This document shows positions 18,838-44,772 of a stretch of 64,000 nucleotides of DNA, in pieces. The notes beneath the pieces are model-generated. The model was given only the letters and a program-made list of their open reading frames with translations. It did not search any database and was not told where the DNA came from. Source of the DNA: Arthrobacter sp. PM3 (GTDB lineage Bacteria > Actinomycetota > Actinomycetes > Actinomycetales > Micrococcaceae); NCBI RefSeq assembly GCF_003352915.1, contig NZ_CP022314.1:2546644-2610643 (forward strand). Reading direction: 5' to 3'. How positions within the stretch are numbered: the first letter of the stretch is position 1; every line of letters starts with the position of its first letter. Both the position numbers and the translations under genes were made by a program.

Positions 18838-19782
18838 ATGCTTCATCAAATGAGTCAGACCAGCCTACCGCTTCCCAGTCCTGGAGATTGGTGCCAGCCC
18901 GATGAGCGACGCTCGGGCATTCGATCCGCGCATGAGATTCAGTCACCTGAATTTGATCTCGACCTGTGGCGCGTATACGAATGGCTTCTTGATCGGCCGA
19001 TTGGAGAGTTGCTACGTATAGCAACCGATGATGCAGTGAAATATGTTTTGGACGGCGCGCGGACATGGAGATTCGACCTTAGCGATCAGTCCGTCGACTC
19101 AGATGAGCGTGCATCCGTTGGTGTGAAGCTTCAGTACCATGTGATCCAAAAATTAGGATTGTCGAAAGAACCGCCCTTGGACACGTCGATCTTGGGAACT
19201 GCTGTTGAGATTAAGGGGACAGTCAGAAATACGTGGATGATCCCGCGGGAGGGACAATGCGAGGTGACGTTGCTAATCCGCATTGACGCGGTCAACCATA
19301 CTTTTGCGGCATGGCTAATGCGGACCCACCGAGCCTGGTTGACCGGCAAGAAGGGAAACCGGGATCTCAAACGTTCACCCCGCGCGGAGGCCGTGCGCCG
19401 CTACGCACTTGAGGTTGTCCCATGGACGGATCTGCCGCCAGAACCGCTTCGATTACTCAACCATGAGCAGCTTAAAGTCATTTTTCATGAGAAAAATGGC
19501 CTACGTCGTCGGCTGACAGCATTGTTCGAGTTTCTACCCATGGTAGTAGTACCCCGTGAGTCGATATCGGTGGTCGGCGCTGGACTAAGGGACCCCATGA
19601 GGAGGGCACGTGAAGTCAAGAACGATCTGCGTTCGAAGGGCCTGATCCTCCTCGTAGGAACCTGGAAGCGCGAACGGAAGGCAGCCGAGGAATGCGGTTT
19701 CGACCTCCCGGATGAAGCGTGGGTAGCCGTCCCTCTGGAGCGATTCCAAGAACTGAGTGTGTCCGTTCCCCCACTGAATTAG
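18838..19782 (+). CDS. NaeI-family type II restriction endonuclease
   Basis: 314 residues, close to NaeI (317). The conserved core reads DTSILGTAVEIKGTVRNTWM (from Asp115), then 'REGQCEVTLLIRIDA', 'AWLTGKKGNRDLKRSPRAEA' and 'LPPEPLRLLNHEQLKVIF', matching the NaeI pattern in order. The likely metal-binding residues are Asp115, Glu124 and Lys126 (the E-I-K triad in place of D-C-K). NaeI cuts at GCCGGC and is unusual in needing a second site as an effector and in being close to a topoisomerase. The specificity of this enzyme is not proven. ATG 18838 or 18850 could be the start; neither has a strong site. The nearest cytosine methyltransferase is 1.6 kb downstream, with two other elements between. 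Confidence 0.85.
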   Translation: MLHQMSQTSLPLPSPGDWCQPDERRSGIRSAHEIQSPEFDLDLWRVYEWLLDRPIGELLRIATDDAVKYVLDGARTWRFDLSDQSVDSDERASVGVKLQYHVIQKLGLSKEPPLDTSILGTAVEIKGTVRNTWMIPREGQCEVTLLIRIDAVNHTFAAWLMRTHRAWLTGKKGNRDLKRSPRAEAVRRYALEVVPWTDLPPEPLRLLNHEQLKVIFHEKNGLRRRLTALFEFLPMVVVPRESISVVGAGLRDPMRRAREVKNDLRSKGLILLVGTWKRERKAAEECGFDLPDEAWVAVPLERFQELSVSVPPLN

Positions 19783-19995: not shown

Positions 19996-20844
19996 GTGGC
20001 AAAGGGAATTAGAGATTGGTCTGATGGCGAAGTGTCCGCAACTGTGCGTAGCTACTTCGACATGCTACTGCTAGAAGTGTCGGGCCGGGCGTATGTTAAA
20101 AGCGATTTCCGTAGGGCGTTGATACCGCTACTCAATAATCGGTCGGAGTCAGCGGTGGAGTACAAGTTTCGAAACATCTCGGCGGTGATCATGCAGCTGG
20201 GCTTGCGACCGCTCCGCGGCTACAAACCTGCCTTAAACTATCAAAAGTCTTTGTTTTCTGAAGTCGAGCGTCGGTTAGCGTCCACACCTCACATTGTAGA
20301 GCTAATGGTGTTCGAGGCCGGCCATGCACCTGCAGCAAACCAAGGCAATACGTTGAATGCGACTAGCGCCGCTATCCCCAAAACTATACATATGAAGTCG
20401 GCTAGAAGGGCTAAAATTACCACCGCTTTTCCTGACTATGCAGCTATCGAAGCGCAAAACCGGGCACTCGGATTAGCCGGCGAACTGGCCGTCCTTGATT
20501 TGGAGTACCAGCGGCTTTGCAATGCGGGAAAAGTTTACCTCGCTAGAAGGATTGATCACGTTAGTGCCTCCCGAGGTGACGGGGATGGGTTCGATATTAG
20601 TTCCTTTGAAGTCAATGGCAAGGAAAAGCTGATTGAGGTGAAGACCACTAGGTCGCGTGCGGAAACACCATTCTTCATCACCAGTAACGAGTTGCACGTG
20701 TCTGTTACGCGAGCGGATAGCTACTATCTCTATAGGGTTTTCAACTTTGGAAACGACAGCGCCTGGTTTTCCCTGCAAGGAAGTCTTGAGCAGACCTGCC
20801 AATTGCAACCCAATAGTTTCACCGCTGTTCCATACAAAAGTTAA
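19996..20844 (+). CDS. DUF3883-domain protein, predicted PD-(D/E)xK nuclease
   Basis: 282 residues. The N-terminal half (about 1-110) includes a segment 'NNRSESAVEYKFRNISAVIM', commonly seen ahead of DUF3883 domains. The C-terminal half is a DUF3883 domain: 'N..LGLAGELAVLDLE', 'IDHVSASRGDGDGFDISSFE' and 'KLIEVKTTRS', giving the nuclease-like residues Glu in AGE, Asp198 or so in GFD, and Glu-Val-Lys at about 213-215. The fold resembles restriction endonucleases. Start GTG 19996 after GGGGGCGG. The gene is notably A+T-richer than the flanking metabolic genes, a sign of transfer. It may work with the NaeI-like gene upstream or on its own. Confidence 0.8.
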   Translation: MAKGIRDWSDGEVSATVRSYFDMLLLEVSGRAYVKSDFRRALIPLLNNRSESAVEYKFRNISAVIMQLGLRPLRGYKPALNYQKSLFSEVERRLASTPHIVELMVFEAGHAPAANQGNTLNATSAAIPKTIHMKSARRAKITTAFPDYAAIEAQNRALGLAGELAVLDLEYQRLCNAGKVYLARRIDHVSASRGDGDGFDISSFEVNGKEKLIEVKTTRSRAETPFFITSNELHVSVTRADSYYLYRVFNFGNDSAWFSLQGSLEQTCQLQPNSFTAVPYKS

Positions 20845-21428: not shown

Positions 21429-22736
21429 ATGAATGGAATGGAACGCGCGAGCGAGCTGACAGTGGTCGAGATCTGTGCGGGAGCCGGTGGACAGAGTCTG
21501 GGGTTGCACCTTGCAGGGTTCCGGCACACACTCGCCGTCGAGCTTGACCGCGATGCGGCCGAAACCCTCGAGCGTAATCTGTTACGCCTGGCAGCCGCTG
21601 AGGGGCACCCCGAGCCGAAGGTTGCGGTCGGGGACGTTGCTGACGAGTCAGTGTGGGACCCCGCCGAACATGCGGGAGTCTCGCTGCTCGCAGGGGGAGT
21701 GCCATGCCCCCCGTTCTCGACTGCCGGCAAGCAACTGGGCTCGTCGGATGAGCGAGATTTGTTCGCCTGGGCCGTCGAGGCTGCTGGCCGCATGAAGCCT
21801 GACGCCGTGCTGCTGGAAAACGTCCGGGGGCTATCGATGCCGCGGTTCGCCGGGTATCGGCAGGCCGTCCTCGACCGGTTAGCTGAGCTGGGGTACCGCG
21901 CCGACTGGCGGCTGCTTGAGGCAAAGAATTACGGTGTCCCGCAATTGCGGCCTCGCTTCATCCTCGTGGCTCTGCGTGAAGAATTCGCGCCTTACTTCAA
22001 CTGGCCTGAGCCGACCCCGGCAGTACAGACGGTGGGCTCTGCACTCTATGACCTCATGGCAGTGAACGGCTGGCCGGGCGCTGAGGCCTGGGCGGAGAGG
22101 GCCGACCGAGTTGCACCGACAATTGTGGGCGGCTCCAAAAAGCATGGCGGGCCCGACTTGGGCCCCACCCGGGCGAAGCGCGAGTGGCGCGCCCTGGGAG
22201 TCGACGGCCTTGGGATCGCCGATGCAGCGCCGGGCCCCCATGTCCCAGTAGATTTCGTCCCCAAGCTGACCAATCAAATGGTCGCCCGCATTCAGGGCTG
22301 GTCGGGCCAGCCGTATGAGTGGGACTTCGCTGAACGTAAAGGGCGAAAAACTACGACCTACAGGCAGATCGGCAACGCGTTTCCCCCACCGGTAGCCCGG
22401 GCTGTCGGGGTCGCCATAGCATCCGCATTACATAAGGACGGAACCCCGACCGGCCTCCACGGCGGGGGCAGCCACGACGAGGTCTACCGGGCGCTTCGTG
22501 AGCACGCCGGCTTTGTCTCGATCGCGGGCCTGCGGAAGGCGCTCGGAGGAAGTCTGACCGACGACGAGATTGAGCGCAGGGTCGACTTCATAAGCCGTGA
22601 CTTTGAGGTTGAGGTGCGCCTTCGCGGCGGCGTGCCAATGTACAGGCTGGGGGAGTGGCGGGCGTTCCGCGGGCAGGCGGACCACGCCCGTCACGAAGTG
22701 TTTGCGGTCGATCGCCTGCGCGCGAAGGTTAGCTAG
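21429..22736 (+). CDS. DNA cytosine-5 methyltransferase
   Basis: 435 residues. The classic C5 motifs appear in order: motif I EICAGAGGQSLG (14-25), motif IV with catalytic Cys93 in GGVPCPPFS, motif VI ENV at 130-132, motif VIII QLRPRF, and motif X GNAFPPPVARAVG. The variable target-recognition region lies between about 215 and 300. A C-terminal extension of about 90 residues after motif X ('DDEIERRVDFISRDFEVEVR') is outside the catalytic fold. It would protect host DNA by methylating cytosine in a defined site. It could be the partner of the NaeI-like enzyme (whose natural partner is also a C5 enzyme), the marking unit of the following ParB/SNF2/HNH genes, or both. Confidence 0.95.
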   Translation: MNGMERASELTVVEICAGAGGQSLGLHLAGFRHTLAVELDRDAAETLERNLLRLAAAEGHPEPKVAVGDVADESVWDPAEHAGVSLLAGGVPCPPFSTAGKQLGSSDERDLFAWAVEAAGRMKPDAVLLENVRGLSMPRFAGYRQAVLDRLAELGYRADWRLLEAKNYGVPQLRPRFILVALREEFAPYFNWPEPTPAVQTVGSALYDLMAVNGWPGAEAWAERADRVAPTIVGGSKKHGGPDLGPTRAKREWRALGVDGLGIADAAPGPHVPVDFVPKLTNQMVARIQGWSGQPYEWDFAERKGRKTTTYRQIGNAFPPPVARAVGVAIASALHKDGTPTGLHGGGSHDEVYRALREHAGFVSIAGLRKALGGSLTDDEIERRVDFISRDFEVEVRLRGGVPMYRLGEWRAFRGQADHARHEVFAVDRLRAKVS

Positions 22737-22880
22737 CCGACTCGTCTATGACGCTGTGCGTGAGTGATCTTGATTGTTGAGCGCTGCGGCCGGTGTCTCC
22801 GACCGCGTGTCGTGGCCGTCGTCGGCCTGTCAACGATAGGTCTTTGGCACACTGTCTTCATCTAGTTTTAGGAGCTCTTC

Positions 22881-24287
22881 ATGCCAAACTTCGGCATTCC
22901 TCCAAAGGGGGAGGAAATTAAAGCAGTCATCGACCAGCGCCTGAAGCTGGCGATGACTGAAAACGGCGCGAAGGTCACCATTGACTGGCGTGGGGAGCCC
23001 CGCCACCTATACGTGATCTCCATGCCGGTCGATATGCTCTACTTCAACCCGGACACCCATCGAATCCGCGCTCAGCGCACGCTCGACCAGGAGCGCGATA
23101 GGGCCATTGAGCTAGATCCCTGGGGTCAAATTGCCCAGGACTACCTGCACGATTTGCTTAGGCAGCGGCCGTCGAACCCGGACCAGACGGACCCCGACTA
23201 TACCGCGCTCATGGACGAGCTGGACGACGTAGGCCAGCGAGAGCCCGGCATCGTAACTCCTCACGGGATCTTGGTCGACGGCAACACTCGAGCGGCCGCG
23301 CTGATTGATCTCGGCGAGCAGAATATTAAGGTCGGCGTTCTGCCGGAAGACACCTCGCGTAAAGATATCAATGCTGTGGAGTTGTCACTCCAGCTTCGTA
23401 AGGACCGCCGACGCGACTACTCCTACATCAATCGGCTTATTGCGATCGACGAGGAGCTGGGGAATGGGCGCTCCGAAGCCGACGTTGCCAAGGACTTCAA
23501 TATCAAGCTCGCGACGCTGCAGCGTGACCGCTGGGTCTACGCGCTCATACTCGAAGCGATCGACCGAAGCAAGACGGCGGATGGGGCGACCCTGCGCCTG
23601 ATCGATTTCGAACAACACCAGGAAAAGCTACGTGAGCTCCACCGCGATTTCACAAAACTAGCAATAGCCGATTCTGATGCTGCCAACACCCTGAAGCAGT
23701 CGCGTCTGGCGATGGTTCTCCTGGACTACCCGAAGACGTCCCTGCGTCTCGCTGAGGCAGAATTCCACACGCGATATCTCGAGAGCCGTCTCCCAAAGGA
23801 CCTGAAACCGAATCTATCCGCTTTGGAGAAGGTCTCAGTTCCGGGCATTCCAGGAGCGGTTCTACCTAGCCAGAGTAGCGCTTCTGCAGCAGCCGAAGCT
23901 CTCACTAACCAACTTCTCCGTGCTAAGGCAACGGCGACTGATGGCAAGAGCGCAAACCCCGTGGATGTCTTATGGGCGTCGGGTGTCATGAAGCAGGCGC
24001 GCGATACTTTCGACGTCGCCGTTAAGCTTGCTGGGCAAAATGCCGAGCTTGTAAAGAGGCAGACCGCGGTCCCTGAGCGGCTGACTGATGCCGCGGACTA
24101 TGTTACTCAGTGCGCGAGCGAGTTCGCGGAGGCGAAGGCAAAGCGAGCCCTTGACGACGAGGCTTTTGACGATGCACTGATCGTGCTCCGCGACAGCCTC
24201 CAAAGTCTCGCCCGCCAAGCCGGACGTACTTTCCCCGCGCCCGGGGAAGGCGTAGCTTGGCTCCTTAAAGCCGTCCGGTCCAGGTGA
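22881..24287 (+). CDS. ParB/Srx-fold nuclease-like or CTP-switch protein
   Basis: 468 residues. The N-terminal 200 residues form a ParB/sulfiredoxin-type domain: 'YVISMPVDMLYFNPDTHRIR', then the signature GILVDGNTRAAAL (132-141), which corresponds to the nucleotide/DNA-contact GxxR segment of ParB. A middle helix-turn-helix-like region (NGRSEADVAKDFNIKLATLQ) is followed by a long helical C-terminus. It is not in a chromosome-partition operon: no ParA nearby. Start ATG 22881 has TTTTAGGAG. The stop overlaps the GTG of the helicase gene by 4 bases, so the two are made together. ParB-fold proteins bind CTP or act as nucleases; here I infer a regulatory or target-sensing role in a defence cluster. 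Confidence 0.82.
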   Translation: MPNFGIPPKGEEIKAVIDQRLKLAMTENGAKVTIDWRGEPRHLYVISMPVDMLYFNPDTHRIRAQRTLDQERDRAIELDPWGQIAQDYLHDLLRQRPSNPDQTDPDYTALMDELDDVGQREPGIVTPHGILVDGNTRAAALIDLGEQNIKVGVLPEDTSRKDINAVELSLQLRKDRRRDYSYINRLIAIDEELGNGRSEADVAKDFNIKLATLQRDRWVYALILEAIDRSKTADGATLRLIDFEQHQEKLRELHRDFTKLAIADSDAANTLKQSRLAMVLLDYPKTSLRLAEAEFHTRYLESRLPKDLKPNLSALEKVSVPGIPGAVLPSQSSASAAAEALTNQLLRAKATATDGKSANPVDVLWASGVMKQARDTFDVAVKLAGQNAELVKRQTAVPERLTDAADYVTQCASEFAEAKAKRALDDEAFDDALIVLRDSLQSLARQAGRTFPAPGEGVAWLLKAVRSR

Positions 24288-26116
24288 CGGTGGCTGACGG
24301 CCCGAGCCTCGCCATCGGCCTTGCGGCGGAGGTGACGCGCGCCAGGCTCATCGCTCGGCCTGGGCTGGAGGGTGATCTCCGTAGGTTGGCTGTTGGCTTC
24401 CGCACGAGCACGCATCGGTCACCAGGCATTGTCGAGATTGGGCTCGACGACCTTCTGACAAACCTTGAGGTACTCAGCAAGTGGCCGCACGCAACGGACG
24501 GCGACGTGACATGGGACGAGCCGCTTCAGGCGCTCGTCGTCGACTCGCTGAACGATGCCCAAACGCTGACTGGGCAGCTGAATGACACCGGTGCGCCGGA
24601 AGCGGTGGACACCGAAGCCGTCCCTAGCCTTCTCGGGCCCGAATGGACAGGAGACCTGACTTCGTTCCAACTGCGCGACATCGCCAAGCTGCTGTCGTTG
24701 CGGCATGGAGCCAATTTTTCCGTCCCAGGTGCCGGTAAGACTAGAGTTGGACTGGCCGTATTCCAGGCGCTTCGTCGCCAGGAGAATGTCGAAAGACTAC
24801 TCATCGTCGGCCCCAAGTCGAGCTACGAAGCATGGTGCTACGAGAATATGACGTGCTTGCAGCCGTCGCTGTCTATGGAGGTGGCCGACGGTATCCCGTC
24901 CAGCACTGCGCAGGCAGTCATCGTCAACTACGAGCGCCTTCCCAACATGGTGGGATCCCTCGGCCGCTGGCTCACGGAGAAGCCCTCGATGATCATCCTC
25001 GACGAGGCCCATCGCATGAAACTCGGGGCGGACGGCGCGTACGGCGCAGCCTGCCTCGCTCTCGGCCCTCGCGGCAGGCGCCGGCTCATCCTCACAGGGA
25101 CGCCAGCCCCAAACGGTGTCAAGGACCTAGAAAACCTCTTTGGATTCGTGTGGCCCGGAACTGGTCGCCAGAGCGTACTCCGGGCGGTCAACGGCGGCGA
25201 CCTCGCCGACGCCAGCCGCGCGCTTAGGCCGCTCTTCACGCGAACGACTAAACGCGAGCTTGGTCTGCCGCCAGTAGAGACTAGCCTTAGGACTGTTCCG
25301 CTGCCTCCTTTGCACGCGGAAATTTACGAGGCCCTCGTTGGCCAGTTCTCCTCCCGCGCGACCGGACACGAGGGCGACTTCCAGGCTCTTGGGCGGATCT
25401 TGGTGTACATGCTCATGGCTGCGACGAGCCCTGCCCTCCTTACGGTCGGAACCACACAGTACGAGCCGCTTGCATATCAGGTGCCGCCGCTTCCGGTTCC
25501 CGAGCGGTCGTCGCTCTACCAGCTGATGCAGGACCTTCCCACCTACGAGATGTCGCGGAAGTATCAGGAAGTGCTTGCAATCGTCCGTGAGAATGCTGCC
25601 CAGGGTCGGAAGACGCTTGTGTGGTCAACCTTCATTCGGAGCCTCAACACCCTACAGCGAATTTTGGTGCGGTTTGGCCCTGCGCTCGTCCACGGTGGCA
25701 CCCCGGACCGCGAAGAGCAGATCCAGCGGTTTAGGAACGACCCGGACTGTATGGTGCTGCTGTCGAATCCTGCAACGCTCGGCGAGGGGATTAGTCTGCA
25801 TCACGAGTGCCACGACGCGGTTTACGTCGACCGTGACTTCGCCGCGGGCCGATTCCTACAGAGCCTCGACCGTATTCACCGTCTCGGGCTCCGACCAGGC
25901 GTCACAACCCGGATCACAGTCCTCGCCTCAGAAGGCACCATTGATGAAGTGGTCGCGGCACGGCTTGCGAACAAGTTGACGTTTATGGGTGGCATCCTCG
26001 ATGACCCCGCGGTTCAGCAGCTGGCTGACCTGGATGAGGAGCCTTCGGTCGGTGGAGGTCTCGGCCAGGGGGACCTTCAGGCGTTGATGGGCCACTTGCG
26101 TGCGTCTTCCACCTGA
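24284..26116 (+). CDS. SNF2-type DEAD/DEAH helicase-translocase
   Basis: 610 residues. Superfamily 2 motifs are complete: Walker A NFSVPGAGKT (Lys at about 152), motif II ILDEAHRMK (about 238), motif III LTGTPAPN, and motif VI SLDRIHRLGL (about 525). The spacing and the IHRLG form place it with SNF2-like DNA translocases; there is no nuclease or methylase domain fused. A preceding 120-residue N-terminal region has no recognised domain. Start GTG 24284 overlaps the ParB-like stop; its own 3' end overlaps the next gene by 17 bases. It probably moves along DNA and drives target search or cutting by the nuclease-like partners. About 62% G+C, like its neighbours in the cluster. Confidence 0.92.
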   Translation: MTVADGPSLAIGLAAEVTRARLIARPGLEGDLRRLAVGFRTSTHRSPGIVEIGLDDLLTNLEVLSKWPHATDGDVTWDEPLQALVVDSLNDAQTLTGQLNDTGAPEAVDTEAVPSLLGPEWTGDLTSFQLRDIAKLLSLRHGANFSVPGAGKTRVGLAVFQALRRQENVERLLIVGPKSSYEAWCYENMTCLQPSLSMEVADGIPSSTAQAVIVNYERLPNMVGSLGRWLTEKPSMIILDEAHRMKLGADGAYGAACLALGPRGRRRLILTGTPAPNGVKDLENLFGFVWPGTGRQSVLRAVNGGDLADASRALRPLFTRTTKRELGLPPVETSLRTVPLPPLHAEIYEALVGQFSSRATGHEGDFQALGRILVYMLMAATSPALLTVGTTQYEPLAYQVPPLPVPERSSLYQLMQDLPTYEMSRKYQEVLAIVRENAAQGRKTLVWSTFIRSLNTLQRILVRFGPALVHGGTPDREEQIQRFRNDPDCMVLLSNPATLGEGISLHHECHDAVYVDRDFAAGRFLQSLDRIHRLGLRPGVTTRITVLASEGTIDEVVAARLANKLTFMGGILDDPAVQQLADLDEEPSVGGGLGQGDLQALMGHLRASST

Positions 26117-26969
26117 ACCGGTCCTTCTGGCCGCGCGGCGCTGGCTGGAACTTCTCCCGTCGAGTGGTGGCATTCCACGTGCCCAGGCGCTGCTCACGAC
26201 GCACAGTCAGTACAGCGACTTGTCGCCCACTCAGTACGCGACAGCACTTAGTTGGTTGCGGGACCTGGAGCTCCTAGGGAAACTCGGATCCCCCATTCCC
26301 CTAGCAAATCTGGTACTTGGCGCGATCTTTGAAAAGGCAGCACCACCCTGGGTTCAGGACGCCGACGAGCTCGTTCAGTCACCGGAAGAATTGCCTACAG
26401 ACATCGTTTCGGCAGGGGAAGTGCTCGGACTCGATGCGAACGGGGTATACGAGCAGCTCGTCACGAGTTGGGGTAAGGTCAACGCGGCTATTCGCGAGCG
26501 GGTTGGTTTTGCGGGCGAAGCAGAGCTCGTCTCGATGCTCAAAGAGAGCGCTGACAGCCGCGTCGACCACGTGTCGACGTGGTCCGATGGGTTCGGATAC
26601 GACATTGCCTTCGCTCAGGGGGCTGCGTCCGCCCACTTGGAGGTGAAGAGTACAACGCGGACTGGACGATTCACTGCCTACCTGTCACGGCACGAGTACA
26701 GGGTGATGCTACGAGACCATCGCTGGGTGCTCGTCATCGTGCGGCTTAGCGCCGACCTCCGCATCGTCGCCGTAGGCTCAGTGCCTCGAGACTGGATTGC
26801 TGCTGCCGTACCACGCGACGCAGGTTCTTTCGGGAGCTGGGCGTCATGCAAGCTCGAGGTGCCCGGCGAGGTAATCGAGGATCGTGTCACGCAGCTTGGA
26901 GTGGATGTGGCCAGCAGACTTCCGCCGTGGCGTACCGTGCAGCCGCGAGCGACCGCTCGGCGAGCCTGA
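26100..26969 (+). CDS. Predicted PD-(D/E)xK (DUF3883-like) nuclease with N-terminal winged helix
   Basis: 289 residues. Residues about 10-85 look like a winged helix (ATALSWLRDLELLGKLGSPI). The C-terminal half has the DUF3883/restriction fold pattern: 'RVGFAGEAELVSMLKE' with Glu, 'DGFGYDIAFAQ' with Asp (about 166), and 'AHLEVKSTTRTG' with Glu-x-Lys (about 180), then 'YLSRHEYRVMLRDHRWVLVI'. These three residues form a plausible metal-binding nuclease centre. GTG 26100 lies inside the end of the helicase gene (17-base overlap), so translation is coupled. It is inferred to be the DNA-cutting subunit served by the SNF2 motor. It shares its domain type, but little sequence, with 19996-20844. Confidence 0.8.
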   Translation: MRLPPEPVLLAARRWLELLPSSGGIPRAQALLTTHSQYSDLSPTQYATALSWLRDLELLGKLGSPIPLANLVLGAIFEKAAPPWVQDADELVQSPEELPTDIVSAGEVLGLDANGVYEQLVTSWGKVNAAIRERVGFAGEAELVSMLKESADSRVDHVSTWSDGFGYDIAFAQGAASAHLEVKSTTRTGRFTAYLSRHEYRVMLRDHRWVLVIVRLSADLRIVAVGSVPRDWIAAAVPRDAGSFGSWASCKLEVPGEVIEDRVTQLGVDVASRLPPWRTVQPRATARRA

Positions 26970-27049
26970 TCCCCGCATTCCGCCGCAGAATCATATGATC
27001 ACGGGGAACTAATGACCACGCCTGGCTAGGCAAGATTAAAAGGAACAAC

Positions 27050-27745
27050 GTGAAACAACCGGCGTGGGATGACCCCGAGACCAAAGCGGGGACCATGATT
27101 CGCGGGGCGCTGTGGCTGCTGCAGGTGGTCGGTGAGGGGCGTACCTTCACAAAGAACGAACTGCGAACGGCTTTTCCCGGCATCTCACAGATCGACAGAC
27201 GGATCCGGGATCTCAGGGACTATGGCTGGATACTACACTCCAGCGCCGAAGACGCATCACTGCTTGCCGAAGATCAGCGGTTCGTGAAGGCTGGCGTGCC
27301 GGTGTGGGACCCACATGAACGCAGGCAGGCTTCGCCCCGAAAGGCGATTTCGAGCAAGGACCGGCAGGCAGTACTTATACGAGACGGGTACATGTGTACA
27401 CTGTGTGGCATCGCGGGCGCTGAGTCTTATCCAGACGACCCCGTAATGACGGCTGTCGTGGCCGTCTCGCGGCGCACTCTCCGAACCTTTGACGGCCGAG
27501 AATCCGAAACGTTTGTGACCGAGTGCAAGCGGTGCACGTCAGGACGGGGGGAATCGCCGATTGACGAGCGCGACGTCCTTTTGGCCGCGGCGGAACTTAG
27601 CCCCCAAGATCGCCGGCGTTTCATTCGGTGGACGGAGCGTGGCCGACGCGGCAGCACCGAGCTCGACCGCGCATGGGCGGCGTACCTGCGGATACCGAGT
27701 GATAGGCGAAAAGGCGTGGCCGGTCAGCTTGGCCGGGAACAGTAA
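27050..27745 (+). CDS. HNH-type endonuclease-like protein
   Basis: 231 residues. N-terminal winged-helix-like region (about 15-75). The C-terminal half carries a zinc-finger nuclease pattern: 'RDGYMCTLCG' (CxxC at about 114-117) and 'FVTECKRCTSGRG' (second CxxC), followed by the helical tail 'LSPQDRRRFIRWTERGRRG' seen in an actinobacterial HNH family next to C5 methyltransferases. The segment where the first catalytic His usually sits reads TAVVAVSRRTL, so the usual His is not obvious and the enzyme may be divergent or inactive. Start GTG 27050 with AAAGGA. It lies 80 bases after the PD-(D/E)xK gene on the same strand and is the last gene of the cluster. Confidence 0.78.
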   Translation: MKQPAWDDPETKAGTMIRGALWLLQVVGEGRTFTKNELRTAFPGISQIDRRIRDLRDYGWILHSSAEDASLLAEDQRFVKAGVPVWDPHERRQASPRKAISSKDRQAVLIRDGYMCTLCGIAGAESYPDDPVMTAVVAVSRRTLRTFDGRESETFVTECKRCTSGRGESPIDERDVLLAAAELSPQDRRRFIRWTERGRRGSTELDRAWAAYLRIPSDRRKGVAGQLGREQ

Positions 27746-28274: not shown

Positions 28275-31200
28275 TTACCTGAGGCTTCGGAAGAGGTTGA
28301 TGACATGGTTTGGGTTGCGGTCAAGCATGAACATATCGACATAAACCACTCCATCCAGATCGGCGCATTCGTCGTTAATCTGTGCTGTTGCCTTCGTCAG
28401 CCTGTCCGACATCAGGTCAGCTTCTCCTGATTCCAGGGGATGCCGCAGGATCACCGCGATGCGTCCTTCGGCTGCTTTGTCCCACAGTGCGCAGGCGGCG
28501 AAGTCGTTCTCGAGTAGAGAGACGTTGTAGACCGCAGCCCAGTTTTTGATTGCTTGCCGTTGCTTGTCCAGCTCGATGGTCAGATTCCGGCCGTCGAGTA
28601 CTGCTTTCAAGTCTCTGGCTAGACGCCAGTCAAGGAGTGCGTGGTAAGCCATATTCGAATAATCACGCAGGCAGCGGTAGCAGGAAGACGAGCACTCCAC
28701 GGAGTGCTCACCCGCCAGTTCATCCAGGTAGGTGTCAATGTCGGCGAGGTATTCGTGAAGGATCTCGGGTCTTCCCAGGTGGGTGCTGAAGCCCGCGCCG
28801 TTCTCCAAGGTGTCGGCAAGGAAAGCGAACGTGGTTGGCTCGCCGTCCTTTAGCCCGGTAAAAATTCCGGCGTTGAATTCCTGGGATTGAATGTCTAGCT
28901 TCTTCGCAGCCACTGTCCTCATTAGGAAGCTCAGTGAGTACCAAGCAGCTCGGCGGCCTTGAATAGAGTCATACGCGCCGTGTTGTTGAGGCGTTCCGGT
29001 GCTTAGATCTAGCCGTAGCCCCTGAAGCTTGATTTCGGCTGACTGCGGTCCGTAGAACAGGAAGTCCGTCGGTTGAATTGTTCCCAGCGCAGCAGCGATG
29101 GAGGGCTCGGACTGGTCGGTGTGCACCGCACTCGTCCCATCAGGAGCTATGGCTATGTAGCCGCCCCAGTAATCGTTCGGGAGGGCTTGCTTGAACTGGA
29201 AGGATTTGCCGGAGTTGTCATTGATCACATACCGCTTCCCACGGCCCGAATATGCGACTGAACCGGGGAGGGAAACGGGCTGCAGTTTTTGGAGGTCGGC
29301 CACGGCCCGGATAGAGGTCGACTTGGGTGACCAGGAGAAGTTGCCGTCAAAGTCTCGGGGGGTGCCTGCACGATATCCTTTGGGCTCCCGGAGATCGATG
29401 GTACTGAAGATTCCGGGGTCAGCTCCGCACTGTGGGCAAGAGCCGGCCGCGTATACCGAGCCTATTGGTTTTTCTTCCACGTATGCACACTGCCTGCATA
29501 CATCGATTAGTCGTTGGTCACCCAATGCATTGTCTTCAGCCGTAACTGTGCGACCAGCAGGGTAGAAGGAGGCCACTCCGATGACAGGATAAATTTTCCC
29601 GTCGCGCACCAGCTCACTGCCGGGAGCGAACTGGTTAACTGCCATCGCTGCATCGCGGTCGATTACATTGTCCGGCGGCCAGGGGAAAGCGGAGCTTGGT
29701 TTCTTGAGGTAGAGGTCCCGAACCTTTGAGGGGAACCCGAACATCGGCAGGAGGCCGCTTTCGGCCAACCGCTGACTAAGGTCGGAATGGCCGGGGATGT
29801 CACTGAAGGCAACCATGGAAATATCCTCAGCCAGGGAGGCGATACTGGCACGTGCAATGTCCAAGTCATCCTGGCTTAGGTTCGTGTATGTCGCCAAACC
29901 GGCCACCGCCTCCTCAACTGTTGCCCGGTTGTCATTGAGCCATCGACTTAGCAGTGGCTTCACCCTGGCCCAGTCCGATACCAACCCGAACTGGCCATGT
30001 GTGTTGTTACCTAATCCGGAGAATGCGTCATCCTGAGAGAGGGCGTCGGTAAAGCCGATGAATGCACGCCGGAGCGTTTCACTTCTCAGAGCACGTGTAT
30101 AAATTTCGGGACGGTTGAGGGCCAGGTATGGCTGCGGTGTTGGTTCACTGGTGATGAGTTCGGGCCGTCCAAAGTAATACTCATCGTGGCTACGGCCCCT
30201 GCACACGGTGAGTGACACCGCCATGGGCGTCAGACGTCGGCCGGCACGCCCTACGCGCTGCTGGTAGTTGAATCGGGTGGGTGGCATGTTGGCCAAGATG
30301 ACGGAATCGAGGGCGCCAATATCGACGCCAGCTTCCATCGTTGTGGTGACGGAGAGCAGCTCAATCCCGTCGGACTTCTTGTTCTCCGTCTGGTTGAGGA
30401 AAACATTCTGGAACCGGGCTTGCCGGGATTGGGCGGCGAGCCGATCGGTTTGGCCGGTAAGTTCGGCCGCGGTGAGACGGAACTGGCCCTGGCCATAAAT
30501 GGCCTTATGCCCGTAATAATCAAGTTCTGTCCCATGGGCAGTTGCCTCTGGGAGGTCCTTACCGCAGTACGTGCACAGACCGCACCCAAATACCAGGTGT
30601 CGGCGTCGGCAGTTCTGACATGTCCATTCACTGCTGGAGGGCTGGTAGATGGTTGCCATCTCGGCGTGGATGAGAAAGTTGGATACTGCGTCGCCCCATA
30701 CCTTCCGGACCAATGTCTGAACGTCATCAACGTCCATGTCGAACTTCAGCGAGACTGCCTGCCAGAAGGTCTTCAGCTTCCTCGGTGGCGTGTCGGAAAC
30801 GTTTCTCATGCCGGCGAATCGGCGCATTCCTGCAAGGATGCGCAGGCTGGACTGTGCGATGGCAGCCGGAGAGGATGGGACATTCTCAGTGGCGCTGACA
30901 GATCCCACGAGTCCAACCCAACCTAAACCTAGCGACTCATAGTCGCGTCCTACCCCAGAAAATAATCCGTCAATGATTTCCTTCTGCACGTTTTTGTCTA
31001 TGGCACTCTCGAGCTTCTTCTGGGCAGTGGATAGGTCTGTTTTCCGTGCTGGTGAAGGATCCCAGCGGTAGATAGACGACCAGGATGAGGGGACTTTCTC
31101 GTCAGTTTGCTGGAGAGAAGCCGATGGACCGCCGGGATTTGTACCCATCTCCACAAGCCGCTGACTAACACGGTCGGTGAGAACGGGAAGTGAAGGAGAT

Positions 31201-33740
31201 TGAGTAAGTCGGCGGATGGCTTCCGTTTCCGGCACGTCACTCTCAAGGTCCCACACGTCCTGCAGGAGGGTGAATGCGTTCAGATCCTTGGCACGCAGGC
31301 GTTTGATCGCGTCCTTGGACTCTGCGGTCTTCCTTCCGTCGACGAAATGTTCCTTGGCTAACGGAATATCGACTGCAATCTGATCCGTTGCCGCAAGTTC
31401 CGTACGGAGGAGCAACCGCAACAGGTCCTGGTAGTGGCGGAGGCTGATTCCGGAAGATAACTTGGCCGCGTCCTGCCGGCTGTCCGTGAAGACGATGGTT
31501 TTCCGGTTCGCGGGCTCGAGGTCTTGGAGCAGTTCTGTGATGAGCACCTGATTTATTTTTTCGAACCCGGTGCGCATGGCCCGAATGGGTGATCTTTGAC
31601 GTTTCTTGTCTGACGATGCCACTGGCCCATCAGCGGTGTGGGTTACCTCCCAGTCATCGGCGCAATTAGGGCACCGCGTCGGGAACGGCGACAACTGCTC
31701 TGGGTTCCGTTTGAAGACGCCCGAATTTTGGCCGCGCTTGCCTGCTGGTGTGGCCACGTGGAACGTCCAGCCTGTGTGGTCGTTACTTCCGGTCGGACGG
31801 AGCTCGCCCGTCTCGGGCCTGAGGATTGAGCGCCTGAATGCGTACTCTACTTTTTTGCCGTCTGCAGTCCATTCCCGATCCTCCAAATCCGGGTTCTGCT
31901 TCTGCGGCCAGTAAAGAAGGTAGTTATTGGCTGTCCGCTCGAGACCCGCCTGATCGGGTAGATGTTCGATGTCGGACAGGTCTGCCAGCAGGGTTACAGA
32001 CTTTCCCGGTGGCTGGGTCGAACCGGCGGGTACGTACCCTCCCAGGAAGACGTCTCCACAATTTTGGCAGTACAGGAATTCCAGTACTCTGGAGCCGCAT
32101 AGGCACCGGCTGACCGGTTCGGAGTACAGGCGCCCTACAGGACGTGTCGGACTGCGCCCTTCCTGAACTTCAGGGCACGCCGGGTCGGTGCAAGCCCACA
32201 TACCCGGTACGTTGCGGAAGAAAAGATGGCTTCGCAGTAGAGGCCATCTGACCGCGCCTGCCTTCTCCGGAGAGGCTGCAGCAGCTTTTAAGAGCTTCTG
32301 TACTGCCTGTCGGCGCGAATCTTCAGGCAGCGCGGGGAATAGATGATGTTCGATCTGCTTAAGAGACTTCGCCTGCGGTTTTGATTGAGGATCCCCGTTT
32401 TCTGCCAGGAAGAAGACGTTACTCAGGGCACTGGCTCCCGTGAGCTCGTCCGTGTGGCCGGGGACGCCGTCTGGGGTTGCGAATCCCGTTTCCGACAGGT
32501 CTAGAGTCGGATCCTGTGCGCGGATGAGCTGTCCGGAAAGGAAATCAAATGATTCGCGCGGCACACCAAAGAATTCCTCAACGAAGGCCTCGTCCCGGTT
32601 AGATTCCAAGGAGGCTGAGGCGGCGATAACTTGGAACTGGCTGGAGTCTTCGGCCAGTCCGAGCCTCATCTTGAAGTTGCGGATGAGCAGCGCGACTTCT
32701 GTGCCGGCGGTACCTCTGTAGGAGTGCAGTTCATCGACGATGAAAGTGAATCGATGGTCAGAACTGGCTTGAAGCCATTCACGGGTTGAGTCGAAGTACG
32801 GACTGTCACGCTCGCGCAGGAGCAGGACGTTGAGCATCGAATAGTTGGTGATGAGGATGTCGGGGGCAGCGTGGGCCATGTCCCACCTGGAGACCATCTC
32901 AGCTCCGCCAAGATGGGGCATGAAGTACTTAGACTCGTCATCGAGCTGTTGCATCTGGGTACTGCGTTGGTCGATATCTTGAAGATAGGAGCGGAGATTT
33001 CCCACGGCAACTTTATTGTCTACTGCTCCGGTGACGGGCGTTGCCCCGGTGTACCGACCGAAGTAAAAGCGGTGCCCGCGCCTGTTCTTGTCCAACCACG
33101 TCCGGGCCGCGTCACTGTCCAGTGCCTTCCGCAGCCGGATCAGCTGATCATCAACCAGCGCGTTCATCGGATACAAAATGATGGAGCGGACAGCTTTGGT
33201 GCGTCCAGCCTCTGTCTCCCGCTGTGGCACAAACGGACTATCTGCCCCTCTCCACCATGTCGCGACGGATGATCCGTGACCGGTCCAGGAGGTTGATTCG
33301 GCCAAAAGGTTAGAAAGTAGGGGCAGAAGAAAGGCCTCCGTCTTACCTGCACCGGTGCCTGCGGTCACCACCACATTGCGTTTATCCCTTACGGCCGATG
33401 TCAGGGCTGACTCCTGGTGAGTGTACAGGTCCCGACCGGCAGGCACGAGACCGGTCCGGGCGAACTCAACCAAGTCCTTTGAGGCGTGCGCGTGTTGTAC
33501 TGACTCCTCGAAGGACTGCGTGGAGGCCACGTATTCGGGGCGCAGTTCGATGAAGGGTTCCCTGTAGACGCCGTTGTCCTTGTCGAGGATCCGACGTCGT
33601 TCTGCTTCAAGGTTTTCGTCAGCCAGCCCGAACGGTGTGTCGTAATAACGAAAATATGACTCCCGCAAGTGGTCGAACGTCTCCACGATGTCTAAAGGCA
33701 TGATGTCGGCTTTCTGTAGGAACGAGTGGCAGCGTTGCAT
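28275..33740 (-). CDS. Giant DEAD/DEAH helicase with DUF1998 domain (DruE-like)
   Basis: 1,821 residues. The N-terminal helicase core has Walker A TAGTGAGKT (126-134), a DExH box IVDELHSYRG (about 334) and motif VI QQRVGRAGRR. Between the helicase lobes and after them lie several Cys pairs (CLCGS with YCQNCGD, CPNCADDWE, CQNCRRRHLVFGCGLCTYCG, CRQCAYVEE with SCPQCGADPG). The C-terminal DUF1998 signature reads ECSSSCYRCLRDYSN then HALLDWRLA. Size and layout match DruE of Druantia systems rather than DISARM, where helicase and DUF1998 are separate proteins. Last gene of a three-gene operon, 5 bases after the previous stop. Alternative start M14. It is expected to be a nucleic-acid motor acting on phage DNA; the biochemical details are not known to me. 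Confidence 0.88.
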   Translation of the reverse strand: MQRCHSFLQKADIMPLDIVETFDHLRESYFRYYDTPFGLADENLEAERRRILDKDNGVYREPFIELRPEYVASTQSFEESVQHAHASKDLVEFARTGLVPAGRDLYTHQESALTSAVRDKRNVVVTAGTGAGKTEAFLLPLLSNLLAESTSWTGHGSSVATWWRGADSPFVPQRETEAGRTKAVRSIILYPMNALVDDQLIRLRKALDSDAARTWLDKNRRGHRFYFGRYTGATPVTGAVDNKVAVGNLRSYLQDIDQRSTQMQQLDDESKYFMPHLGGAEMVSRWDMAHAAPDILITNYSMLNVLLLRERDSPYFDSTREWLQASSDHRFTFIVDELHSYRGTAGTEVALLIRNFKMRLGLAEDSSQFQVIAASASLESNRDEAFVEEFFGVPRESFDFLSGQLIRAQDPTLDLSETGFATPDGVPGHTDELTGASALSNVFFLAENGDPQSKPQAKSLKQIEHHLFPALPEDSRRQAVQKLLKAAAASPEKAGAVRWPLLRSHLFFRNVPGMWACTDPACPEVQEGRSPTRPVGRLYSEPVSRCLCGSRVLEFLYCQNCGDVFLGGYVPAGSTQPPGKSVTLLADLSDIEHLPDQAGLERTANNYLLYWPQKQNPDLEDREWTADGKKVEYAFRRSILRPETGELRPTGSNDHTGWTFHVATPAGKRGQNSGVFKRNPEQLSPFPTRCPNCADDWEVTHTADGPVASSDKKRQRSPIRAMRTGFEKINQVLITELLQDLEPANRKTIVFTDSRQDAAKLSSGISLRHYQDLLRLLLRTELAATDQIAVDIPLAKEHFVDGRKTAESKDAIKRLRAKDLNAFTLLQDVWDLESDVPETEAIRRLTQSPSLPVLTDRVSQRLVEMGTNPGGPSASLQQTDEKVPSSWSSIYRWDPSPARKTDLSTAQKKLESAIDKNVQKEIIDGLFSGVGRDYESLGLGWVGLVGSVSATENVPSSPAAIAQSSLRILAGMRRFAGMRNVSDTPPRKLKTFWQAVSLKFDMDVDDVQTLVRKVWGDAVSNFLIHAEMATIYQPSSSEWTCQNCRRRHLVFGCGLCTYCGKDLPEATAHGTELDYYGHKAIYGQGQFRLTAAELTGQTDRLAAQSRQARFQNVFLNQTENKKSDGIELLSVTTTMEAGVDIGALDSVILANMPPTRFNYQQRVGRAGRRLTPMAVSLTVCRGRSHDEYYFGRPELITSEPTPQPYLALNRPEIYTRALRSETLRRAFIGFTDALSQDDAFSGLGNNTHGQFGLVSDWARVKPLLSRWLNDNRATVEEAVAGLATYTNLSQDDLDIARASIASLAEDISMVAFSDIPGHSDLSQRLAESGLLPMFGFPSKVRDLYLKKPSSAFPWPPDNVIDRDAAMAVNQFAPGSELVRDGKIYPVIGVASFYPAGRTVTAEDNALGDQRLIDVCRQCAYVEEKPIGSVYAAGSCPQCGADPGIFSTIDLREPKGYRAGTPRDFDGNFSWSPKSTSIRAVADLQKLQPVSLPGSVAYSGRGKRYVINDNSGKSFQFKQALPNDYWGGYIAIAPDGTSAVHTDQSEPSIAAALGTIQPTDFLFYGPQSAEIKLQGLRLDLSTGTPQQHGAYDSIQGRRAAWYSLSFLMRTVAAKKLDIQSQEFNAGIFTGLKDGEPTTFAFLADTLENGAGFSTHLGRPEILHEYLADIDTYLDELAGEHSVECSSSCYRCLRDYSNMAYHALLDWRLARDLKAVLDGRNLTIELDKQRQAIKNWAAVYNVSLLENDFAACALWDKAAEGRIAVILRHPLESGEADLMSDRLTKATAQINDECADLDGVVYVDMFMLDRNPNHVINLFRSLR

Positions 33741-33745
33741 ATGCT

Positions 33746-34654
33746 CTAATGCACTTGCAGGTGTTGGTGAATGGATCGAGCGACGGCTAGAGCAACAGAG
33801 TGGGGTACATTCTCATACGCCCATGCCCCGCCCAGCGACTTGACGGGGCTGACTCCGCTGCACAGGGCCAGTGCTCGCCGGTGTTCCACCGGTAGCGGCA
33901 GGGTCGCATTGACACGGAGTGTCCCGATGGGATCTGCGCTTTCTTCAAGGATCTTCAATTGGAGACACTGCCTGTCCACTTCGGACATGGCCAGGCACAT
34001 ACCTTCGGCATAGCCAACTGAGGACCAGAGCCCTGATGTGAACAACCAGTATTGCCACCGTCCGTTCACCGTTTGCCTGAACAATCCGTCCCGGCGGAAG
34101 GCCTCCACGTGAGTGAACTCCCGTTGGAAGATGTTGAACATCTCAACTGCTGCTCCGTAAGTGTTGGGTCCCGCTGATCGAGGCCCGGGACCGAGCAGAG
34201 GAAGCTCTGCGGCAATGGACAAAGCAGCGCAAGGGAAGAACGACACTCCTGCAGCGCCGGCAACCTCCCTCAGTTCTGCTTCACTGTCGTATTCAAGGAG
34301 AAGGACCCTTGGGTCGCCGAGCGGGGCTGTTCCGGTTTTCGGGGGTCCGACCCTGTGCAGCACAGCTTCCGCTTCGAGCCGGTCTTCTAACTCCGTTGTG
34401 CGTTTGCCGATGACCAATGCAAACGCCGAGGACCCTGGAAGTTGTGTCAACACCGTTGGCCGGATTCGCCATTTGCTCTCCGACCACAACAAATCCAGAT
34501 GCCCCAACACCTCCAAACGTCGCAGATACGCTCGAGCAGCATTCGTTCTGGCATACGGAAGACCGTCCATCAACGCGGCGACTGATGACGTCACGTCAGA
34601 AAGGCGGCCGTGCCCACGAAAACTTAACCACTTTAGGACTAGGTCACCGTCCAT
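33746..34654 (-). CDS. Uncharacterised protein of the DruE-like operon (possible DruG equivalent)
   Basis: 302 residues. The first 60 residues look like a winged helix (ARTNAARAYLRRLEVLGHLD then LLWSESKWRIRPTVLTQL). The rest is a mixed alpha/beta protein ending 'LPVEHRRALALCSG' and 'YENVPHSVALAVARSIHQHL'. I do not recognise a catalytic motif. ATG 34654 has an AGGA site and overlaps the upstream gene by 11 bases; the DruE-like gene starts 5 bases after its stop, so the three proteins are made in step. By position it would match the small accessory protein of a type II Druantia operon, an inference from gene order and size, not from sequence. Confidence 0.72.
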   Translation of the reverse strand: MDGDLVLKWLSFRGHGRLSDVTSSVAALMDGLPYARTNAARAYLRRLEVLGHLDLLWSESKWRIRPTVLTQLPGSSAFALVIGKRTTELEDRLEAEAVLHRVGPPKTGTAPLGDPRVLLLEYDSEAELREVAGAAGVSFFPCAALSIAAELPLLGPGPRSAGPNTYGAAVEMFNIFQREFTHVEAFRRDGLFRQTVNGRWQYWLFTSGLWSSVGYAEGMCLAMSEVDRQCLQLKILEESADPIGTLRVNATLPLPVEHRRALALCSGVSPVKSLGGAWAYENVPHSVALAVARSIHQHLQVH

Positions 34655-36653
34655 TGATGCTGTCCTCCATTGACTGCGACAAATATGCTCTCCACAAGCG
34701 GTCCGGGTTGCCGATGGTTTCGCCAGCGGCCCGGCGCCAAAAAGCCCGGGCCTGGCCGTCTATCGATCCGAAGTTCGGTGGATCAGCCGCAATCCGCTGG
34801 GGCTGCGACAGCTTTCCTGCTTGTTCAGTCAAAACAAAGGTTGTACCCTTTGGGACAGAGATTTTCCACCGGTAGGAATCGGGGAATCCGAGCCCTGTGA
34901 TGAAGAGGGGAATAGGAGGTTCACCACACCTTTGCACCAGTCCCGAGGGAGTCACGAACCATACAGCGGCGTCCCGTCCCCGTCTGCAGAGCACGAACTC
35001 GAGCGCTCGCGTTTTTGGCATCGCGCCGCCCGGAGGCATGACCTCGTCGTGACCGTTGGTGTGCGCCGCTTCCCACTGAGCTGCAGAGCCGGTGGAGTGG
35101 ACGAAAAAATCCAAGGCGACGCCAGCGACAGAAACTGTGTGCTTCCCCTCCGCAAAGGGCCCGGCGAGCCGAAGGGGAAAGAGGGAACCGTTGGCCTTCA
35201 CTTGTGTTCCGGGCAGTCTGTTGTCAAGTACAACGTGAACGTACTCGTTAGAGGATCCCTCGGGAAGCTGCACATCCGGCTCACCTCCTAGCAGGTAGTG
35301 ACGGCCCCCGACATCCGTCCGCAATTCAAGACCGTTCGCAAGTTTAGGCCGCAAGCTCGGAGGTGCTTTCAGGAGCTGGCCAAGGCTATTGAACGAACCC
35401 GCCACTGACAGGTCAATCGGCTCCACTAACGACACGTCTACATACACGACCCATCCGGGAAAGACCTTGCCGCGAAGCTTCCAATACCCGGGCGCGGCAC
35501 TTTTGGTGAGGAGCTCGTCCATCTCTGCTACGTCATTGTCCTGCACAACGAACACGTGGGGCTCGTCCGGCGTGGCGTCGGGCACCGACTGCCAGCGGCC
35601 CGATGAAGGATCGATGCGCAAGATCCACACTTGACGCACATTCTTGGTCAGGACCGCTTTGGCTCCTGTTGCCCGAAAACGGTGATTAATCAGAGAAGCG
35701 CCTTGGGGGAGGCAGCCTGCTACTACGTCGTAGACAGAACCGTAATCTGGTTTTTGGATGGAGAAGAGTGAACCGTTGTCCTGCCTAAGTTCGTCCCTAT
35801 CCAACCGACGATCGATAGGGACTACCCAGCTGATCGACCAGTCCTCTGGGTCGATACACATGCTCAGGTCCAACCGCACCCGGCCCTCGGCTGCAGTCGG
35901 TCCGGAGGTTTCCTCGGCAGCCAATTTGGCTATCACCGCTAAGAGCAACGGATTTCCCGAGCCTTTTTGAACCAGGTCCACGAACGCCGTGGAGAAACCC
36001 CGTGGCTTGTCTAGCCACAGGCGGAGTAAGGCTAACAACTGATCTGGTGACGGTCTGGAGTTGCGATCAACACGGAGCCGGTCAAAAAAACCGGACAATC
36101 GATCCCGGTCGGACGCTTTCAACACGGTTTGAGAAAGCGGATAGCCGATTCTGTTGAAGGTCTCATGAGTGCGGATAGTGCTCGGGCCTAAGAGACCCTG
36201 GTTTCTTTCTATCCAGTCATCGAGCGTCTGCCACATCTCAGCAACTACATCGAAGTGCTTATGGATCCCGGTCGCGGTGAGCCTGTTTGGACCGGACGTC
36301 ATCAGGTCGACCAGCCGAGGGTAATAAGCGGCAGAGGAGAATTTTCCGTCGTTGCGCATTCTGGACCCTGCGATGACGGTCACGGCCAACACAGGCAGGC
36401 ATGGTGGGGGTTGATCCTGCGCACCCTTCCTCCAGGAGGCGAGCCGCCGGTCAATAGGCTCGAATACTGTGGACTTGTCGGTTTGCCGGAGCTCTGCGAG
36501 AACAGCCGAGCGCAGTGACCCCGCCGGATCGGGCAGGAGAGGACAAATCCGTGCCAGTTCCTCATCATCGAGAAACATGATGACGGGTTCATCAGGCTGT
36601 TTCATCGAGAAGAATTTATCCGACAGCGCCCACTGCCATCGGTCGTAGTCCAT
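34644..36653 (-). CDS. Uncharacterised large protein of the DruE-like operon (possible DruF equivalent)
   Basis: 669 residues from ATG 36653 (MDYDRWQWALSDKFFSM), which follows TTGGA at suitable spacing; an in-frame GTG at 36713 would add 20 residues. The N-terminal part (about 20-45) has 'EPVIMFLDDEELARI'. A central region around 260-330 ('RVRLDLSMCIDPEDWSISWV') and a C-terminal beta-rich region ('LPEGSSNEYVHVVLDNRLPG') show no motif I can assign. It is the first gene of the operon and overlaps the next by 11 bases. No membrane segment or signal peptide. Function unknown; probably a structural or sensor subunit for the giant helicase. Confidence 0.72.
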   Translation of the reverse strand: MDYDRWQWALSDKFFSMKQPDEPVIMFLDDEELARICPLLPDPAGSLRSAVLAELRQTDKSTVFEPIDRRLASWRKGAQDQPPPCLPVLAVTVIAGSRMRNDGKFSSAAYYPRLVDLMTSGPNRLTATGIHKHFDVVAEMWQTLDDWIERNQGLLGPSTIRTHETFNRIGYPLSQTVLKASDRDRLSGFFDRLRVDRNSRPSPDQLLALLRLWLDKPRGFSTAFVDLVQKGSGNPLLLAVIAKLAAEETSGPTAAEGRVRLDLSMCIDPEDWSISWVVPIDRRLDRDELRQDNGSLFSIQKPDYGSVYDVVAGCLPQGASLINHRFRATGAKAVLTKNVRQVWILRIDPSSGRWQSVPDATPDEPHVFVVQDNDVAEMDELLTKSAAPGYWKLRGKVFPGWVVYVDVSLVEPIDLSVAGSFNSLGQLLKAPPSLRPKLANGLELRTDVGGRHYLLGGEPDVQLPEGSSNEYVHVVLDNRLPGTQVKANGSLFPLRLAGPFAEGKHTVSVAGVALDFFVHSTGSAAQWEAAHTNGHDEVMPPGGAMPKTRALEFVLCRRGRDAAVWFVTPSGLVQRCGEPPIPLFITGLGFPDSYRWKISVPKGTTFVLTEQAGKLSQPQRIAADPPNFGSIDGQARAFWRRAAGETIGNPDRLWRAYLSQSMEDSINGR

Positions 36654-36977
36654 ATGATTTTCCAAAACTTCCTTGTCCCCCACCTGCATCACTGTAATTG
36701 GTGCCACCGACACTCTTGGTTGACCACGCTGCAGAGGAGCTAAGAAAAGTCACGGGACACCAGTACCGCCGGGCACGCTCGGGACTAGGCGGCAGCCCAG
36801 GAGCTGACCCCCGTCTTGCCGCGATCGGCCACGCCTGTGCTTACGAAAGGCATTGTTCAATGGAATCAAACAGCGAGCCTCCCACCGTCGTTTTCGGCTT
36901 GTGGGACGCTCCTACCCAGTCATTAGTGCAATTGACTTGAGTGCCGGAGCGGGCGTACCGAGAACGAGTGGGAAGAG

Positions 36978-40085: not shown

Positions 40086-40114
40086 GGGGCCGGCGGCACG
40101 GTGCACAACTTGGT

Positions 40115-44759: not shown

Positions 44760-44772
44760 GCCGAGGGTCGTA

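Follow-up and report, generated by a model that had tools for sequence, protein, structure and literature searches.

Type I, type ISP and type III restriction enzymes combine a site reader, an ATP-driven motor and a nuclease. The Dpd modification system has the ParB-like DpdB and the SNF2 protein DpdE, while DISARM class I has the SNF2 protein DrmD and a PLD nuclease. The MORC/paraMORC restriction-modification (R-M) operons contain, according to Iyer et al. (2008; PMC2292703), a SWI2/SNF2 helicase, an HNH or EcoRII-type nuclease, a Vsr protein and a cytosine methylase. In a 64,000-nucleotide stretch of Arthrobacter sp. PM3 DNA (the window; positions 2,546,644 to 2,610,643 of contig NZ_CP022314.1, a single contig of 4.35 Mb), a C5-cytosine methylase gene is followed by genes for a ParB-like protein, an SNF2-type motor, a NOV_C (DUF3883) protein and an HNH-like protein. 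An earlier note on this DNA had proposed these five genes as a candidate defence system. The genes are real, and their positions were confirmed together with the overlaps of 4 bases (ParB-like/SNF2) and 17 bases (SNF2/NOV_C), which do not, as the note had concluded, show that the three proteins are made in a fixed ratio. Based on sequence comparison, the cluster is on balance probably a restriction module of several proteins, joined to an R-M system in which the methylase gives protection.

A search of genome contigs with the ParB-like protein yielded 27 related loci (L numbers), all close relatives from actinobacterial genera, in which gene presence was scored by tblastn with the window proteins. 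The ParB-like, SNF2 and HNH-like genes were present in all 27, the C5 methylase in 26 and NOV_C in 23. The methylase was not seen in L009, whose contig stops 4.6 kb past the match. In a sample of 394 genomes drawn evenly from the class (G numbers), the ParB-like gene (E ≤ 1e-10) was found in nine and the SNF2 gene (E ≤ 1e-30) in exactly those nine, adjacent every time. Besides the window's own locus, the eight sample loci (for one of them, G092, the contig is apparently that of L006) all contained the HNH-like, SNF2 and methylase genes, with Vsr in seven, NaeI in four and NOV_C in three. The proposed co-occurrence check was thus carried out, and in actinobacteria the ParB-like and SNF2 genes do not usually occur without the rest; the view that the cluster is conserved, linked to modification and a candidate for defence, and that it includes a motor and a ParB-fold protein, was borne out. 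The distance matrices of the ParB-like, SNF2, HNH-like and NOV_C proteins agree at r 0.90-0.95 (HNH-like against ParB-like 0.95), whereas that of the methylase agrees with those of the four at r 0.55-0.67 (largest permuted value 0.52). By this measure the four genes travel as one unit, and the methylase is more often exchanged.

The HNH-like protein had been taken for a nuclease, and its alignment speaks against this. In 26 module copies (the window and 25 loci; L019 and L021 lie outside the open reading frame (ORF) set) the four zinc-binding cysteines are always kept, while the catalytic His and the metal-site Asn are kept in none: the His position is occupied by R in 25 copies and Q in one, and the Asn position by R in 24 and T in two. 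The structure is predicted with a pLDDT of 90.3. Paralogues stand beside methylases in some loci; the one in L027 has both His and Asn, and those in L015 and L018 have a His displaced by one column, and N or Y. Among stand-alone relatives of the L027 paralogue (the best 120 of 286 database matches), His is kept in 117 of 120 and Asn in 119. When the same 394 genomes were searched with this paralogue, 18 were matched, nine with the module and nine without. With the module His and Asn were found in 0/9 and 0/9, without it in 8/9 and 9/9; in these counts an extra G240 fragment lies outside the motif, and the window and probably G092 also belong to the 26-copy set. Seven of the nine module-less regions were fetched. 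They contain a C5 methylase (six), Vsr (seven) and NaeI or NgoMIV (three), and five have the methylase block GGSKKHGGxDLGPTRAK of the target-recognition region, which 21 of 28 aligned methylases carry unchanged and the other seven with one to three changes. The ParB-like gene was found in none of these seven regions, and in L092 there was a distant SNF2 match at 24%. One methylase family and one HNH family are thus shared by loci that have the module and loci that do not, and loss of the HNH active site goes with the module. The module protein looks catalytically dead.

The motor and NOV_C proteins of the module have intact motifs. The ParB-like protein has a ParB N-terminal fold and a helix-turn-helix (HTH) domain, and all 14 diverse copies that were compared have GN[R/T]R as their ParB box; it is probably a clamp or switch on DNA driven by cytidine or another nucleoside triphosphate (CTP or NTP). 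PADLOC, NCBIfam and Pfam give it no family name. In the SNF2 protein the K and DE of the Walker motifs are kept in 29 of 30 aligned rows, the remaining row being gapped, and its PADLOC matches to ZorD (9.9e-15), DpdE, DrmD and BrxH are weak and partial. For the ParB-like protein PADLOC gives no match. The D of GYD and the E and K of ExK in the NOV_C active site are kept in all 24 aligned copies.

In the working model that we infer from these patterns, the methylase would mark host sites, and the dead restriction endonuclease (REase) relative, here a winged HTH-HNH protein, would still bind the site and report a lack of methylation. It would then recruit the ParB-like protein as a CTP/NTP clamp or switch, and the SNF2 motor for translocation, after which the NOV_C nuclease, or PLD in other loci, would cut invading DNA such as that of phages. 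Where present, NaeI would be a parallel direct cutter. The earlier note had given the role of site sensor to the ParB-fold protein; this role would fit the dead REase better.

Distant ParB-SNF2 pairs were found in Alphaproteobacteria, Bacillota and prophages by plasmid, phage and viral-contig searches. The ParB-like gene is followed by SNF2 in 13/13 viral-contig loci (L066 repeats L057) and in 14/14 fetched plasmid or phage loci, and in several lineages the adjoining gene derives from a restriction enzyme. In Kozakia, Rhizobium, Mesorhizobium, Azospirillum and L054 it is a protein of 280-319 amino acids (aa) similar to PADLOC REase_II PDLC03501 (Rhizobium 2.8e-19, Kozakia 5.9e-19), and Rhizobium L031 has a full PDLC03501 member (2e-137) at the methylase in the same locus. 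Relative to the putative PD-(D/E)xK site of this full enzyme, D97 and E111-x-K113, the putative readers have V or I for D97 and I or V for E111 and keep K113 in 124/124 (120 of these are the top matches among 410 in the database, the other four are plasmid copies). Lactiplantibacillus L038 has just the C-terminal half of Sau3AI (PDB 2reu 3.6e-42; residues 261-509 of 4pxg), which we take to be the non-catalytic half, and a similar C-terminal-type region is found in Priestia L051. A BglII-like fragment of 154 aa (Pfam 5.9e-6 in L055) stands beside an N6/N4-type methylase in L055, L056, L057, L066 and Paracoccus L042; in weak alignments (E 0.33 and 0.51) it has FQLQ for the catalytic IEVQ of BstYI and QLQ for the catalytic EFE of BamHI, with Q in place of E. 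Outside Actinomycetota the nuclease varies between NOV_C (alphaproteobacterial-type loci, Javan191-type prophages, L057), PLD (fused to SNF2 in Lactiplantibacillus L037) and none seen, and the methylase between C5, N6/N4, type III and none seen. The five-gene set of the earlier note is therefore largely kept in actinobacteria and is not invariant: beyond them the constant part is ParB-like plus SNF2, often with an REase-derived protein. In Enterococcus (L033, L039, L052) a protein of 860-869 aa, with a sigma-like HTH in the two that were scanned, precedes the pair, and in L039 type I R-M genes adjoin it; the ParB-like query matches 52 Enterococcus plasmid records. Locus L065 (1-9306) has type III Mod/Res, then the ParB-like gene, then an SNF2 gene broken by an insert.

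It is possible, though somewhat doubtful, that a general restriction platform spans three phyla, in which a ParB-fold NTP switch and an SNF2 motor would accept any disarmed type II REase as site reader, with the nuclease (NOV_C, PLD) and the methylase (C5, N6/N4, type III) exchangeable. The readers of such a platform would be, equally tentatively, HNH proteins, the PD-(D/E)xK family, the C-terminal domain of Sau3AI and BglII-like proteins.

Several observations weigh against the restriction module or its extension to a platform. NOV_C is absent from four of the 27 loci (L021, L023, L025, L027), all with NaeI, and from five of the eight genome-sample loci, two of which also have no NaeI; so the NOV_C cutter would be either not universal or unrecognised in these loci. 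The ParB box departs from GERR, the canonical form. The ParB-like protein could itself be a DNA nickase, ParB-like domains in other proteins being nucleases according to PMC5512222. G003 and G179, two of the nine module-less HNH sequences, do not differ in the motif. All module copies group in a single clade (support 0.883) of a 60-sequence HNH tree, so that by the tree their inactivation within actinobacteria is one event. Loci L015 and L018, which are without NaeI and NgoMIV, carry the second HNH-like gene with the displaced His, which may be active. These genes lie near the methylase, at 6222-7076 (-) in L015 and 6194-6889 (-) in L018, and may encode an active or a half-decayed enzyme. The 120 database readers of the alphaproteobacterial type were counted by sequence alone, with gene neighbourhood outside the count. 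A full-length Sau3AI with its ExK motif kept is found in L037, and just an N-terminal-type half in L064. No dead reader was found in L065, and none is assigned in the Javan191-type prophages, where a DpnII/BanI-like protein stands beside ParB-SNF2. The three Enterococcus loci and Exiguobacterium L053 gave neither a recognised reader nor a match to a type II methylase, and Streptomyces plasmid L029 has ParB-SNF2-NOV_C with no match to a methylase or HNH-like protein.

Restriction enzymes near the module bear both on the target site and on an alternative function. NaeI-type enzymes were found in nine of the 27 loci and NgoMIV in three (together 12/27), and a Vsr gene in 21. The D and K of the NaeI active site are kept in ten of ten aligned copies (the window and nine loci), with E or D two residues before that K in the same ten. 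NaeI and the C5 methylase are inferred from their linkage to be a methylase with its cognate REase. Because NaeI and NgoMIV, both of which we take to recognize GCCGGC, adjoin the same kind of methylase, with its shared block in the target-recognition region, GCCGGC is the likely methylase target in the actinobacterial form. The module could instead be a regulator or safety device, in which the dead REase and a KorB-like ParB would sense unmethylated host sites and restrain restriction, or use SNF2, Vsr and NOV_C to mend breaks, instead of restricting phage. The closeness of the ParB-like fold to KorB and Noc and the frequency of the Vsr repair gene are in line with this, and a dead REase could compete with a live one for sites. 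In 15 of the 27 loci, however, neither NaeI nor NgoMIV, the enzymes that it would regulate, was found, and NOV_C is present in all 15. Among 36 neighbouring ORFs from 14 of these 15 loci, the PADLOC REase models found no match at 1e-5 and no restriction enzyme was among the Pfam matches listed (25 of 27 families), yet L015 and L018 have their second HNH-like gene. As the NOV_C active site is also conserved and stand-alone HNH-methylase-Vsr loci manage without the module, we regard regulation as unlikely.

The cluster could also be two systems without functional connection that share a defence island: a conventional type II R-M system of the NaeI/HNH kind, and an independent ParB-SNF2-NOV_C system that tends to lie next to it. 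The loci differ in gene order and strand, the HNH-like gene often being divergent upstream and the methylase on either side; the methylase diverges less in step with the rest, and the Enterococcus plasmids have the pair with no type II methylase matched nearby. Against this, the methylase lies within the fetched DNA in 26/27 loci and in 8/8 genome-sample loci, and the HNH-like protein, which would belong to the first system, tracks the ParB-like protein of the second and is dead only with the module, which makes a chance neighbourhood quite improbable. A modification-dependent or suicidal system, whose reader would recognize a modified or damaged site and which would kill the cell or attack modified phage DNA, is very unlikely: NOV_C and HNH-type proteins do occur in type IV and abortive systems, and a GmrSD-type gene recurs between NOV_C and Vsr in seven Streptomyces loci (L008, L010, L011, L013, L015, L018, L028), but the link to a cytosine methylase is constant in actinobacteria and a methylation trigger would make the host a target.

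The defence genes of the window lie in a stretch of lower GC content (56-62% at about 18-48 kb, against 64-72% across most of the remaining window), and their coordinates are given in the table. The NaeI-type enzyme and a second NOV_C protein (PDC-S36), located between NaeI and the methylase, had been overlooked in the earlier note. In the 27 related loci the PDC-S36 protein gave a single tblastn match, the NOV_C gene of L016; it is not conserved with the module and is possibly independent of it. The methylase also scores on DruM models in PADLOC (2.9e-219). Further downstream, a GmrSD type IV restriction protein is followed 13 bases on by an EcoRV-type REase (Pfam 2.3e-43; 42981-45954, +), and a Helicase_C piece at 39772-40185 (+), by its look a gene remnant, aligns with the central part of a type IV mREase model (4.6e-30).

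Table. Features of the window and a recurrent gene pair in related loci
Feature	Position	Strand	Evidence
NaeI-type type II restriction endonuclease	18838..19782	+	Pfam NaeI 1.6e-27
Second NOV_C protein (PADLOC PDC-S36)	19996..20844	+	Pfam NOV_C 3e-20; PDC-S36 2.8e-94
C5-cytosine DNA methyltransferase, NaeI/NgoMIV-linked kind	21429..22736	+	Pfam DNA_methylase 5e-50; PADLOC MTase_II PDLC03304 3.5e-228
ParB-like protein	22881..24287	+	ParB/Srx NTP-binding domain 44-178, HTH domain 182-297, long coiled-coil C-terminus
SNF2-type motor	24284..26116	+	Pfam SNF2-rel_dom 2.6e-14, Helicase_C 5.7e-6; GAGKT and LDEAH motifs present
NOV_C/DUF3883 PD-(D/E)xK nuclease, proposed cutter	26100..26969	+	Pfam NOV_C 1.3e-6
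HNH-like protein, apparently disarmed, proposed site reader	27050..27745	+	Winged helix and zinc-binding HNH fold; catalytic His and Asn gone
Druantia type IV-like set directly downstream of module	28275-36713	-	PADLOC DruE4 E 0, DruL4 4.6e-63, DruF4 3.5e-235
GHKL ATPase and partner	L002 5028-8151; L003 5129-8249; L005 14233-17378; L006 14145-17272		

If the restriction module is real, dead restriction enzymes, usually taken as decay, would be working parts that a machine of motor and nuclease can reuse to read its sites. Some loci share the methylase block and HNH family but differ in having the module, the active site being lost where it is present and kept where it is absent; because such natural pairs exist, the reader idea is directly testable. 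Some genes annotated as 'ParB/RepB/Spo0J' or 'transcriptional regulator' beside R-M genes would gain a function. Should the platform also hold, NTP-dependent restriction would gain a new class, and ParB clamps a use in immunity.

No description of the gene set was found in the open-licence PubMed Central literature searched, a collection that may lack subscription papers and recent catalogues of defence systems. In the passages compared, none of the other papers (PMC12839542, PMC10853773, PMC8011034, PMC12458937, PMC3710099, PMC4260502, PMC5644110, PMC10952713) is nearer than PMC2292703. Druantia is represented next door in the window by DruE4 on the opposite strand, but in 0/27 related loci. 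For Zorya, no ZorA/ZorB motor was found among the five proteins and the only similarity is that to the ZorD helicase. Dpd, which is marked by DpdA and the 7-deazaguanine genes, resembles the module in having ParB-like and SNF2 proteins in a modification system, and the PLD nuclease of DISARM class I recalls the Lactiplantibacillus form; among the PADLOC matches listed for the five proteins (in the case of the methylase, 25 of its 58 families) there was no DpdA, DpdB, DrmA or DrmB. The PLD-SNF2 protein encoded with a type IIG methylase by orf33/orf34 of the Lactococcus lactis plasmid FM03P has the architecture of the L037 SNF2 protein, and no ParB-like partner is named for it in the passage of PMC6098607 that describes it.

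The ParB CTPases (chromosomal ParB, KorB, Noc, PadC) share the NTP-binding fold, and the first three also an HTH domain; the module protein differs in its GN[R/T]R box, its long coiled-coil C-terminus and its R-M neighbourhood. With type I, type ISP and type III enzymes the module would share the working scheme, if the model holds, but its reader would be a dead type II REase, acting with a ParB-fold protein. With NaeI/NgoMIV type II R-M systems the loci have in common NaeI or NgoMIV and the C5 methylase, frequently accompanied by Vsr; the ParB-SNF2-NOV_C-dead-HNH unit comes in addition, and in 15 of the 27 loci neither enzyme was found. The nearest description is that of the SNF2-type MORC R-M operons, which according to PMC2292703 have C5 methylase, SNF2, Vsr and HNH sets in common with the module; the word "ParB" occurs 0 times in that paper. 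A GHKL ATPase gene (by Pfam in the L005 copy), with a partner of 381-447 aa (no Pfam match in L005), lies near the module in four of the 27 relatives, and Pfam found no GHKL ATPase in the nine window proteins scanned. We rate the module as a variant of R-M whose component logic is not described in the literature found: MORC/paraMORC operons are defined by the GHKL ATPase, whereas the constant partner here is a ParB-like protein together with an REase-derived putative reader.

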